From contig CAIIXF020000002.1 in assembly GCA_903813345.2 (NCBI GenBank), forward strand, positions 348,001 through 412,000: 64,000 nucleotides of DNA, read 5' to 3'. Origin of the DNA: Owenia fusiformis. Taxonomy: Eukaryota > Annelida > Polychaeta > Sabellida > Oweniidae. The notes beneath the pieces were generated by a model that had not been told where the DNA came from, did not search any database, and saw only the letters and a list, made by a program, of their open reading frames with translations. The translations under genes were made by a program, and so were the position numbers. Shown in pieces: positions 302 through 53,800 of this stretch (its first letter is position 1; each line of letters begins with the position of its first letter).

Positions 302-2444
302 ATGAAAATGAAACTAGTCAAACAAACAAAAAGGAAACTCCAAAGATGCGAACAAGAGATCATATTAAAGATTATCTACAGCTAACTAAACAAGACAATC
401 AGACTGAGAAAATCAGGACGATTCTCAACAGGTTGACAGATATCTACCATACGTCTATCCAGCCCATGGCAGAGGCATATAGATTCAATGATATTCATAA
501 AAACATTATTACAGGTAAAAAGTATAATGTTTTGGATGTTCTGTTTTGAAAACCAAACAGATTCATAGTCTGTCAGTGTTTGATTTCAATCTACCCTTGC
601 TTTTTTAATGACAGTACATAAAATTAATTAGTTTTGTATCATAAACTCAACATTATCTTAGTCTTGTACCAGGTTTGGTAACCTATTTATCAAATTAAGC
701 CCAAGTGGAGATGAGCTGTACAGATGATAAGGTGCTTTAAATATGACCATTCTAAATTCTAAAACATCCCTTTTACAATGTGTAATTGAGCTCATAATTG
801 CAATGATTGATACTCAAGGTCACTGATCACTGATTCCAGATGGTGAGATGCATTCTAAGCCACTGCTGTTATTCCTTGGGCCATGGAGCACTGGAAAATC
901 ATCAATGATAAACTACCTTGTTGGCATTGAGGACTCTGATCATAAACTTTACACAGGTATACTAACTAGAAACACAGAACTACATGTAGAAGTTAAATTT
1001 TCAAAAACAATTTTCTAAACCACCTTTTACATGTAAATTTCAAATATGACATCACTTTGACTGAATTCTGAATATTAGTGATGTTAATTAAGCTTATTTC
1101 TACTTGAATATAGCCTATTACATTAATTATAATATTTTTGTAATGCAGGTGCTGAACCAACTACATCCGATTTTACTGTAGTGATGAATGGACCAAAGTA
1201 CAAGGCAGTGGAGGGAATTGTCCTTGCCACAGACAGCAATAGACCCTTCTCAGCATTGGAGAAATTTGGACAGGTACATGTCAGCATGTTGTTTAAGTTT
1301 GTTCTAAAATGTTAACTGATGAATGGACCAAAGTACAAGGCAGTTGAAGGAATTGTCATTGCTTCACATAGCAATAGACCAACACAGGAGAAATTTGGAC
1401 AGGTACAGGGTGTTTGCTATGGAGATATCCCCAAATAAGATGTGTGAGAATGGTTCCATGGTACACTCATGTTCTGTTAAGCATATTTGTTCAGATGAAT
1501 CACTACAACTAAATATAAATTGGTTCTGCTCATCTTGAGTCTGTTTGTATTTTCAGGGATTTTTAGAGAAATTCCAAGGTGTGGAAATGCCTCATAAGAT
1601 TTTAGAAAAGGTGACAATAATGGACACTCCTGGTATCATAGAAAATAGGAAACAGCAAGAACGCGGGTATCCATTTAACGAAGTCTGCCAATGGATGATA
1701 GATCGTGCAGATCTTATATTTGTCGTATTTGACCCGACAAAACTAGATGTCGGGAAAGAACTTGAGATGTTATTTCAACAGTTGAAAGGGAGAGAATCCC
1801 AGATCCGAATCATATTAAACAAGGCTGATTCTATCTCCCAACAGGAGTTAATGCGAGTTTATGGAGCGTTATTCTGGAGTCTCGCCCCACTGATCAATGT
1901 GACAGAGCCCCCTAGGGTCTACACAGGGTCATTCTGGGGTAGAGCATTTAAAGACAACACAAACCATCAATTGTTTTATGATGAAGAGATATCCCTCCTG
2001 AATGACATTAATCAAATGATCCAAAACAGATTAGAGCACAAGATTGCATTTATACGCAAACATGCCCAACTTGTGCGCATACACGCTCTGCTAGTCAATG
2101 AATATTTAAAGGTCTTCAACGAAAAAAACTCTGTATTTGGAGACACAGAAGAACTAATAAGGGAGATTGTAAACTATCCAAATAGGTTTAATATATTTCA
2201 AAAAATCATTTCATCCAATGGGGTCTCAAAGTATGACATACCTTCCCCGGATATATATAGGGAATTCTTTAGCATAAATGCCATTAATTCATTTTTAAGT
2301 CTCACAAAACATTGCTCATATTTTGATGGCTGTTTGTACGATAACCTAAATGATGCCATCAAAAAACAGCTGCCAGGTCTATTACAGGAGTCATCTGAGA
2401 AGGGTGTCTGCACAAAAGACACTTGTTCAAATTCACAACCTTAA
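302..2444 (+). CDS. SRL: Sarcalumenin-like EHD/dynamin-type GTPase, 3' part of gene
   Basis: Exons at 302-514, 840-956, 1149-1273 and 1557-2444 (stop). All junctions have AG/GT sites and consistent phase (G|AT, G|GT, then phase 0). The protein shows the P-loop GPWSTGKSS, the DTPG switch motif ([20 protein letters not shown]), NKAD for guanine recognition, and the long segment [18 protein letters not shown] followed by [20 protein letters not shown], which is typical of sarcalumenin rather than EHD1-4. Sarcalumenin is a lumenal Ca2+-binding glycoprotein of the sarcoplasmic reticulum that supports SERCA; this role comes from the family. The first visible exon starts mid-codon, so the signal peptide and N-terminal acidic region lie left of the window. 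The C-terminus is short, ending in [11 protein letters not shown]. The family call is firm; the 5' boundary is open. Confidence 0.93.
1318..1409 (+). pseudogene. Partial duplicate of SRL exon 1149-1273 with its donor site
   Basis: The segment repeats most of the preceding exon, from GATGAATGGACCAAAG to GAAATTTGGACAG|GTACA, with about ten substitutions and a small deletion after AATAGACC. It keeps the copied 5' splice site but has no copied acceptor. The reading frame is open but lacks the TDS and SAL residues. It lies in the intron between the true exon and the last exon and is probably not used. Confidence 0.8.
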
Positions 2445-2489
2445 TGAATATCAGAGGTTTCATTAGAATTCATTGTAACAGGCAAAATG

Positions 2490-50800: not shown

Positions 50801-53800
50801 TGAAGGCTCGGAATTGTCACATGCAATAACTTATTGTCGTATTCGTTATTTTATCTTCTCGATAGTAGCATTTAGTCGCACATTTGATGCCAGGTCACCT
50901 TGTCGCGTACCTCTTGGGGAACCCCACATTTATGTGTGTACTCATGGAAGTAAATTCCCCGGTGTAGCCGAGAGCCACAAACTTTTCAACGGGTTCGAAA
51001 TGACCAATTTCTCTCATATATACTCTAAATATTTTATTATTTAGCACCTACAAAGTATTGCTAATAACCATATGTAATTTCAATAAGGAAACTTATCTGG
51101 CTACATATAAATTCAATATCAACACTAGCTGTTCTCTCAACACGTCCTGGCTTACCTTGTGGTGACAAACCCTGGATTTTCGCTATTTATAGTTTATCAA
51201 CACCTGGACGCATGCGCATTTTATACTTTATCGGGCACTTTAAGTTAGAATCATATTCACAGCTAGTATCACACTGTAACTATTTACTGTCAAATTAATA
51301 ATAGTTCCAAAGTCTCAAGGTTTTTAATTGTACTCTTTTACACCACAGTGAAGATAAACAAACCGCATAACTATCAATGTTTTAAGAAAAATATATAATA
51401 GAAATCATAGATGTGACAATTTTCAAATTTTATTCTTAACTTTTCTTCATTTTGTTGCCCTTACACAAACAGTGTAAATAAGCACATTTTCTCTCAAATT
51501 CTGAATAACCATGTTATCATTAGAGGCTTGCTTGATTTAGTGATATTTAATTTCATGGTTGGGCCGTCATGGCTACAGATTAAAATCTTGTCATGATTTT
51601 GCCCAGTTATTTTAAACCTAACTTGCATAATTATGTATAGCGTCTTGTTGCACTTATGATGTGCAAAATATTATCAGCAACATAGGCTTTCTTGTATTAT
51701 CATCTTTATGCAACGAGAAAGTGCCTAACAGCAATTTGAGCGACTGAATTATAAATGTACATTGCGATGATGAGCATGTAAAGAAAAAAAACTTAATATT
51801 TGTCACACTCAATTCGTAGATTAAAATTATAATTTTAAATCGTCACATAAAACATATGAAAATATGTCAAGTCTCTACATGTTGATGCTTATTATCTTCA
51901 TGAAATATGAGAAGAAAATGTCAATAGTGTTACTTGTTTGCTAATATATATATTTATGTGGTATATGAAAATATCTTCATAATAATCTTTCTAACTAGCA
52001 GAATTATTATATCCCAACTTTATGCTCAAACCCTTTTACAAATATCATAATCTTTTTACTCTCATCTTTTGGATGTTTGAAACAACAATTTATGTTGTTC
52101 AAATGGTTAATGATACATATTATTGTATCAGCCCAAAATCAGTCAACTTATCCTCTCCGTGTTAGAATCCAATAGCGTCCTATAGAGTGATGTTCAAGAT
52201 GTATGAACATTCGGTTACATGCGCTACTTAAGTAAGAGTGTATATTTACGTTGTACGTAACTGATGTAAAAATATATTAACTATATGTTTAATATTTTAG
52301 GGACATTTAATGAGGTTTTGTATAAATATACTCATTGTGGTAAACATGTGTGATACATGTATATTGACCTTGAAGTAATAAAAGGAATTGCGACACAAGA
52401 TTCAATTACCTGACCATAGTCTTGCAAATTATCTTCAACTTCACTATAGATGAACTTATATGATAGAACCCATGCGTAAGTAATAAAAGGAATTGCGACA
52501 CAAGATTCAATTACCTGACCATAGTCTTGCAAATTATCTTCAACTTCACCATAGATGAACTTATATGATAGAACCCATGCGCCAAAGGCTTGGGATCCTT
52601 GAGTTACCACCTCGGATACAAACATAACTTGGCCAAGGTCTGCTTGTATCCACTGGTTCGTGTTCATATCTGCAAAAGCAACAGCCCAGCTCCTACTGGA
52701 AATATAACATATACTTTTCAATTGATTATGTACATATTTGCTAAACTGTTCTGACTCTATCAATATTTATTGATACACATCATACCTGCCAACCTAAGAC
52801 TAACAATTTGCGGTAGTTTTTTTTTAATTGCGGTATTTTTGCGGTAGATTTTACATGAAAAAACGGTAATTTTTTACAGTAGTTTGTCATTTTTACGGAA
52901 AAACAAAAATTTTACGGTAGATTCCCGAAAAAATACGGTAGATTGGCAGGTATGCACATAGTATTCCAGGTCTGTATTTGTTAATGACGGTGCATGTTAA
53001 TTTGAATATTAAGTTCAACGATAAACAATTATGTATCATTTTTAATTTTTGAATTATTGATATTGATGTCAATTATATATTAGCACTGTAATTCCGGAAT
53101 TGTCACTTAATACACACAATAAACGTGATTCGAACATGACTGTATTCACGCCTTCTATAAACTGTGAACAAAGTCAATGCTTCAGCTGAGTTATATTCGA
53201 GATCAAATCCCCGGTTCTGTACGGAGTGTTTCGTTCAGTGTACTGAATTGTCAATTCGGGCTGTTCCGTTCTTTTCGCATCCCCCTCTCGTCTGCAATAA
53301 AAATCAATATGGAGGCCGGACAGAATTGTCCTGATCCTAAGTTTGCCGTGGGAGATTTCGTTACTTGTAATTTGAAACACCCTGATATTAGTTTAACAAT
53401 TGAGAACAAACTTGTTTATATTACAAGCATCACCAATAGAACAGGAACAAATAGGTACTCCGTATTTATGATTGATTCACAATTGAGTATGGATTTCGCC
53501 ACTTGGAATTTGGAATTAAGCCAGGAATTTAGTGATTTTTTCGACAATGCTGATGTTTTTGAGAAAACAGTTATCGATAATGATACATCTTGTCCAGCGG
53601 AAGTGAAAGTGAAACGCCATAGCGAAGTAGAATAAGCAGAAATCAAAAACTTACAAGACTGTAGAGAAGAGCCCTCCACAAAAGCAGCCACAAGATGGAG
53701 TGTGAATATTTTCAAAGGTAGGCTTACGCCGGCTAAGTTCGATTGCAAAATAAATTAAATAATCCCAAGTTATCAAGATCACTTAGTTTGTCTTTTTTTC

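Follow-up and report, generated by a model that had tools for sequence, protein, structure and literature searches.

Tandem arrays in the genome of the annelid Owenia fusiformis are seeded at exon–intron borders beyond chance. The stretch that drew attention to this, hereafter the window, comprises 64,000 nucleotides (nt; G000:C2:348001-412000); of its 13 arrays with units of 25 nt or longer, 6 include an exon–intron border of the gene models, against 0.63 expected. The excess is confirmed in samples taken elsewhere in the same assembly, where 16 of 69 arrays lie on a known border against 7.30 expected (p=0.001). An earlier note on the window had held that border seeding exceeds chance and had counted at least seven cases. 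The excess stands in the window and in the samples, although the smaller second family sampled is non-significant by itself when arrays of all ages are taken, and six of the cases are indeed splice-site arrays, the seventh being an array of a coding end in a discoidin gene. The class is already known from amphioxus, where such repeats are called mirages; new here are its presence in another lineage, a frequency sampled across a genome, and the finding that the excess lies in young arrays.

Because the window was picked for its pattern, the test was run on other pieces of the same, single assembly (498.26 Mb in 525 contigs, of which C1 to C12 each measure ~32-62 Mb). In the window, arrays were found by Tandem Repeats Finder (TRF) and self-comparison, 37 borders were placed from gene models by reading the sequence, and the expectation was taken from seeds placed at random along the sequence, every array being reduced to a single unit. 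The pieces of the first sample were fixed before looking. They cover 167 of 180 listed matches to five Pfam families, in 91 pieces (251,300 bases, flanks ~0.7-1 kb) with 333 borders, the exon edges being assigned in the vicinity of every family match with a simple score for splice sites. All matches were used for PF00227 (29/29), PF00441 (23/23) and PF00171 (16/16). For PF00270 48 of 52 were used, open frames of at least 500 amino acids being left out, and for PF00118 51 of 60, the omissions being long single frames, contig C222, a far piece (C11:120216) and an isolated match (C7:13367988) that was absent from the exclusions named when the sample was fixed. PF00270 and PF00171 are represented by their best matches and are partial families (47 of 149 and 12 of 214 candidates scored). 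The second family, PF00063, contributes 43 of 92 matches in 14 pieces (45.9 kb); its clusters were picked to limit total length, so they are non-random, and a tandem exon cluster on C9 was left out. Pooled, the samples hold 105 pieces chosen by protein-family match, with 210 exons, 297 kb and 418 borders. Dispersed repeats within pieces (e.g., L002 at 481, 1142 and 3725) fail the tandem rule, and a 162-nt unit that looks alike by eye in L041 and L047 was entered as two non-border arrays. Partial, non-tandem copies of exon edges (L042, L062) and coding-end arrays (L045 and the window discoidin 3′ edge) were excluded from the border arrays.

The first sample contains 89 arrays with a unit of at least 20 nt, and 14 of them contain a border where 6.5 are expected; by permutation, the expectation is 6.6-6.9 (p=0.003-0.006). 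With units of at least 45 nt, 13 of 37 arrays are on borders against 5.7-6.0 expected. When the 14 border arrays were printed, the splice site could be seen by eye inside the repeated unit, the placement in L026 being ambiguous. Six of them are at donors and eight at acceptors (L011 taken as an acceptor), and copy numbers can be considerable, with ~9 copies of a CCT acceptor edge in L007, ~16 of a CCT donor edge in L010 and ~8 of a proteasome-beta acceptor edge in L013. Since arrays counted as non-border might sit on unannotated exons, a local test was confined to arrays in the neighbourhood of known borders. Within 200 nt, among arrays whose unit reaches 25 nt, the border is included in 14 and missed by 11 (5.7 expected to include it, p~1e-4); with units of at least 45 nt within 100 nt, 13 include it and one does not (5.7 expected). 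Collapsed array coverage is 4.4% over the first 30 bases of the intron, 3.2% at 30-60, 0.6-0.8% at 60-200, 2.2-2.5% at 200-700 and 1.3% at 700-1000. In the second family, the border arrays are L105, which is clear, and L092, which is marginal, with ~4 exon bases.

The age of the arrays, taken from the identity of their copies, separates two situations. In the first sample, 10 of 24 arrays with at least 92% identity are on borders against 2.55 expected, and below 92% the count is 4 of 35 against 3.7. The young arrays of the second family give 2 of 3 against 0.17 (p=0.008). Pooled, 12 of 27 young arrays lie on borders versus 2.72 expected, and 4 of 42 older ones versus 4.58; over ten identity cuts, from 80 to 96%, the ratio of observed to expected runs from 2.5 to 5.2. 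Inspection by eye of the 14 young first-sample arrays that had not been counted found five more at exon edges, either unannotated or near an edge, and these stand outside the figure of 16 in 69. One lies at the end of an eIF4A3-like exon in L072 (PDB match, E 4e-8). Another (L013 2420-3000, continued in L106) marks the start of a PSMB5/8-like exon, the joined translation of which aligns through the end encoded by the repeat. Two are acceptor arrays with 4 and 12 exon bases (L005 3274-3333 and L074 726-782), and the fifth, in L071, is an open frame with a donor and no convincing database match. Among older arrays, inspection by eye of a part, 14 stretches from 13 loci, revealed one coding-end array (L045) and no further borders.

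The genes of the window encode an EHD/sarcalumenin-type GTPase (Pfam Dynamin_N and EHD_N; EHD2/EHD4 in PDB), ST13/Hip (Hip N-terminus in PDB 4j8c), XPNPEP3 (Pfam Peptidase_M24 on exon 30738-30858), a C2H2 zinc-finger protein and an F5/8 type C, or discoidin, protein (Pfam F5_F8_type_C). The six splice-site arrays, four donor and two acceptor, are at the exon edges that had been named in the earlier note: one in the EHD-like gene, two in ST13, one in XPNPEP3 and two in the discoidin gene. On the forward strand, the EHD/sarcalumenin-like exon 1149-1273, formerly called an SRL exon, is followed by a single degenerate copy in which its 3′ edge and the donor recur (1182-1278 versus 1317-1407, 84% identity by self-comparison). 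ST13 lies on the reverse strand. The acceptor edge of its third modelled exon (11263-11080) occurs three times, with two extra copies, in an array at 11211-11443 (unit 78 nt; TRF 3.0 copies, 98%), where TAG|AAACGAG recurs three times at 78-nt spacing. Its exon 1, with the start codon at 15019 and the last exon base at 14910, forms with its donor an array at 13907-15012 (TRF; unit 150 nt, ~7.4 copies), in which the functional copy is accompanied by seven further matches, one of them partial, the extra copies being on the intron side. Between this exon and the next modelled one there is also an 89-nt array (12965-13700; 8.3 copies, 97%, TRF) that shares, by eye, a 13-base string with the exon 1 donor and may be an older or an unrelated array.

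The largest array is in XPNPEP3, on the forward strand, where the 3′ edge of exon 30738-30858 and its donor are repeated over 30834-35525 (TRF and unit alignment); it splits into 155 half-units, mostly 29-31 nt long, the earlier estimate having been ~150. The discoidin gene is on the reverse strand. The acceptor edge of its last exon, with the first exon base at 47987, has two extra copies upstream (47894-48248; unit ~123 nt, TRF 2.8 copies), and the 3′ edge and donor of exon 52695-52515 are duplicated once (52373-52581; unit 105 nt, 99% identical, TRF and self-comparison). The 3′ edge of the last discoidin exon had been taken for a further splice-site array, with six extra copies. Its array, on the same strand (46950-47522 and 47669-47886; TRF unit 115, reading frame), repeats instead the coding end: the exon ends in IGCPK and a stop codon (TAG), followed by GTAAGA, and the array was left out of the splice-site cases because this GT is a putative donor. 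A tandem array in L045 (588-828) is likewise seeded by a coding end with its stop codon. In the zinc-finger gene, on the forward strand, the whole exon reported as duplicated is so, together with its flanks (exons 39759-39998 and 40356-40593; 39742-40014 versus 40335-40610, 82% identity by self-comparison). This pair is a whole-exon duplication, distinct from a mirage.

Across 18 arrays, the unit consists on average of 49 exon and 36 intron nt, and its 4-98 exon bases all lie to one side of a single border. Border-array units measure 28-157 nt in the first sample and ~30-150 nt in the window. Against the functional copy, the other copies carry 155 mismatches in 3254 positions of the exon part and 67 in 1670 of the intron part; this count comprises 19 arrays aligned out of 20 tried, with at most 12 copies per array, and leaves out XPNPEP3, L010:2315, L005:3274, L074, L013:2420, L092 and L105. 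Since exon and intron parts diverge alike, the extra copies look like neutral debris. The earlier note had also considered replication slippage, gap repair and RNA-templated copying. The first two are possible causes. Spliced RNA probably did not serve as template, since intron sequence lies beside the splice site in the units that were examined. At the array junctions, an informal comparison of aligned length with period indicates both short overlaps and short gaps. Two other sources were set aside. A dispersed element, such as an introner or a transposon carrying splice sites, does not suit the one array tested, that of ST13 exon 1, for which all eight matches listed across the assembly are at its own locus (in a search that skips very common words). 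Tandem duplication of whole exons does not suit the border arrays either, as their units hold exon edges and the exon body extends outside the repeat in the printed cases.

We consider it likely that the border arrays are mirage-type minisatellites that are born at borders at a raised rate and later decay. In the six window arrays and the 14 of the first sample, the unit spans an exon–intron border with its splice site; the edges involved are 5′ in some arrays and 3′ in others, and the unit lengths are within the reported ~10-160 base pairs (bp). It is proposed that a short tandem duplication, with a unit straddling the border, comes first and that copy number would then grow into the intron, presumably by unequal exchange. 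The exon-adjacent copy would stay functional, splicing continuing through the outer copy, and the extra copies, each with part of the exon and a splice site, would sit in the intron and drift neutrally. Because the excess lies in young arrays, duplications spanning a border appear to be born several times more often per site than those elsewhere in genic sequence, and the subsequent loss or decay of border arrays would leave the old arrays without an excess. As for the mutational step, local break repair or template switching in replication, at transcribed exon edges, may be the likeliest candidates.

Several points weigh against this explanation. The rule defining a tandem array was settled after the first self-comparison of the pieces, and the 92% cut and the age split were chosen after the counts had been seen. 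In the first sample, arrays with at least 95% identity give, on their own, 4 of 14 against 1.48 expected (p=0.047), and the excess is absent from units of 20-44 nt (1 of 52 on borders). The 12 pooled young border arrays fall in ~9 genes by our own grouping, so the arrays are partly non-independent. The second family, with arrays of all ages, gives 2 of 10 against 1.03 (p=0.28), which is non-significant. A simple splice-site score decided where borders were set; the L026 acceptor is ambiguous, and L092 holds only ~4 exon bases. Finally, the window itself is an upward outlier: its 37 borders carry 6 arrays, and the 418 borders of the samples carry 16.

The alternative that survives best is that whole exons are hot and their edges are not special, selection removing duplications within exons and leaving those in which the extra copy falls in an intron. 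None of the 69 pooled arrays is wholly within a matched exon, despite the 40.4 kb of the 281 kb that matched exons represent, which is what such removal would leave, and the exon part of the unit is on average the longer one. Exon and intron nonetheless have nearly equal shares, which is what a process centred on the edge would produce. GC (guanine plus cytosine) content does not seem to be a driver, the non-border arrays being at background level (0.340 versus 0.337). This alternative fits almost as well as the edge-centred process; we regard it as possible, though unlikely.

It is less probable still that chance is responsible, tandem duplication being frequent everywhere, borders being hit in proportion to unit length, and the window being striking through its selection. 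Arrays are certainly common (89 in 251 kb), and the outlying position of the window and the result for the second family over all ages are what chance would produce. On the other side are the 14 border arrays of the first sample, the local test, the young arrays and the five further young edge arrays that the count had missed.

Exon copies are under constraint. If purifying selection froze the exon copy, border arrays would stay recognisable for longer than intronic ones, and the excess over all ages, about twofold, is of a size that such a bias might give. This possibility, that only the exon sequence can still be recognised, had been raised in the earlier note. A recognition bias predicts an excess among old arrays and is contradicted because the excess sits in the young arrays and is absent from the old; we find it very improbable. 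Least credible of all is a functional reason for retaining the repeated donors, such as U1 binding by the arrays or use as alternative splice sites. Nearly all of the 155 XPNPEP3 units do have the GT (G in 152 and T in 154), but this dinucleotide is not specially conserved, since all 155 units also agree in eleven other columns (some of them fixed by the splitting motif) and the G at −1 is replaced in 37 of 155. Acceptor edges are affected about as frequently as donors, and the exon and intron parts of the aligned arrays diverge alike, so that no sign of a conserved role is seen.

There are precedents for splice signals being multiplied by local tandem duplication. A model of intron gain in which AGGT-bearing exon sequence is duplicated in tandem is reportedly that of Rogers (1989), Zhuo (2007) and Gao and Lynch (2009), as cited by others. 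The likeness is in the local duplication of splice signals; the difference is that the duplicates described here sit in existing introns, and no new intron is shown among them. In a potato RdRp gene, a tandem duplication across an intron–exon border made a new intron (PMC4974935), a case of one gene, one duplication and a demonstrated intron, whereas the arrays here have many copies and show no new intron. Some paralogs from human segmental duplications have variable internal tandem repeats at exon–intron borders (PMC2812944) and resemble our arrays in that border repeats can change gene structure. They differ in being recent paralogs with repeats contained in exons, and the available part of that account gives no rate of border seeding.

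The closest relatives are the amphioxus mirages, tandem repeats spanning exon–intron borders in Adh3, the globins BflGb6 and BflGb9, TnC and PGBD5, with units of 10-72 bp in Adh3 and 150-160 bp in the globins and with extra AG/GT signals in many copies (PMC3087553, PMC3902484). According to the accessible text of these papers, mirages vary between haplotypes and somatically and leave splicing intact. The border-spanning unit, the involvement of 5′ or 3′ edges and the unit length are shared with the arrays of Owenia. The amphioxus cases are single genes in cephalochordates, and the present ones add another genome, a sampled rate, an effect of age and an array of 155 units; instability and normal splicing are features reported there, and the Owenia arrays are known from the sequence of one assembly. 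By name, mirages appear in the amphioxus papers only, and the sources seen contain no comparable count of border rates, in a literature that leaves out most subscription journals, so that absence from other phyla is not implied. The available text of a gastropod paper describes no border-crossing repeats.

Tandem duplication of whole exons is akin to these arrays in being local and in carrying splice sites, and differs from them in that the units here are exon edges. The zinc-finger pair belongs with it, as does an exon-sized duplication in an acyl-CoA dehydrogenase gene (L036:915-1088 and 1419-1592, 79%), both copies of which match the same part of PF00441. At G000:C9:37986009-37994334, about a dozen adjacent matches fall on one stretch of the myosin head (model positions ~18-84), which suggests alternative exons arranged in tandem within a myosin heavy chain gene. 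The last zinc-finger exon of the window contains, in addition, 21-nt repeats that extend from the coding end to beyond the stop codon (41688-42223). Elsewhere in the window, an element at 17388-25032 combines Pfam RVT_1 (reverse transcriptase) and Phage_integrase (tyrosine recombinase) matches with direct repeats nearby, and the two members of a 432-bp pair, at 23779 and 24601, share 100% identity; the element looks like a recent DIRS-like insertion. Reading frames at 53863-55169, which contain a QRICH1 domain and match a tyrosine recombinase weakly, are presumably Crypton-like.

How introns and new splice sites originate is a long-standing question, and duplication of exon edges that bear splice sites is one of the proposed routes. 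If borders are hot spots with a countable rate, here 16 arrays on 418 sampled borders, this route becomes directly measurable, and the cause of the hot spots could be sought by comparing borders for transcription, methylation and splicing. A practical consequence concerns gene annotation, in which inner copies may be mistaken for exons. More tentatively, it is possible that a process tied to transcription or splicing makes exon–intron junctions intrinsic hot spots of duplication in two or more distantly related animal lineages, and that mirages are the main source of new genic minisatellites, perhaps accounting for at least half of the young ones here. They would then steadily supply spare splice sites, as material for intron gain and for new splice forms.

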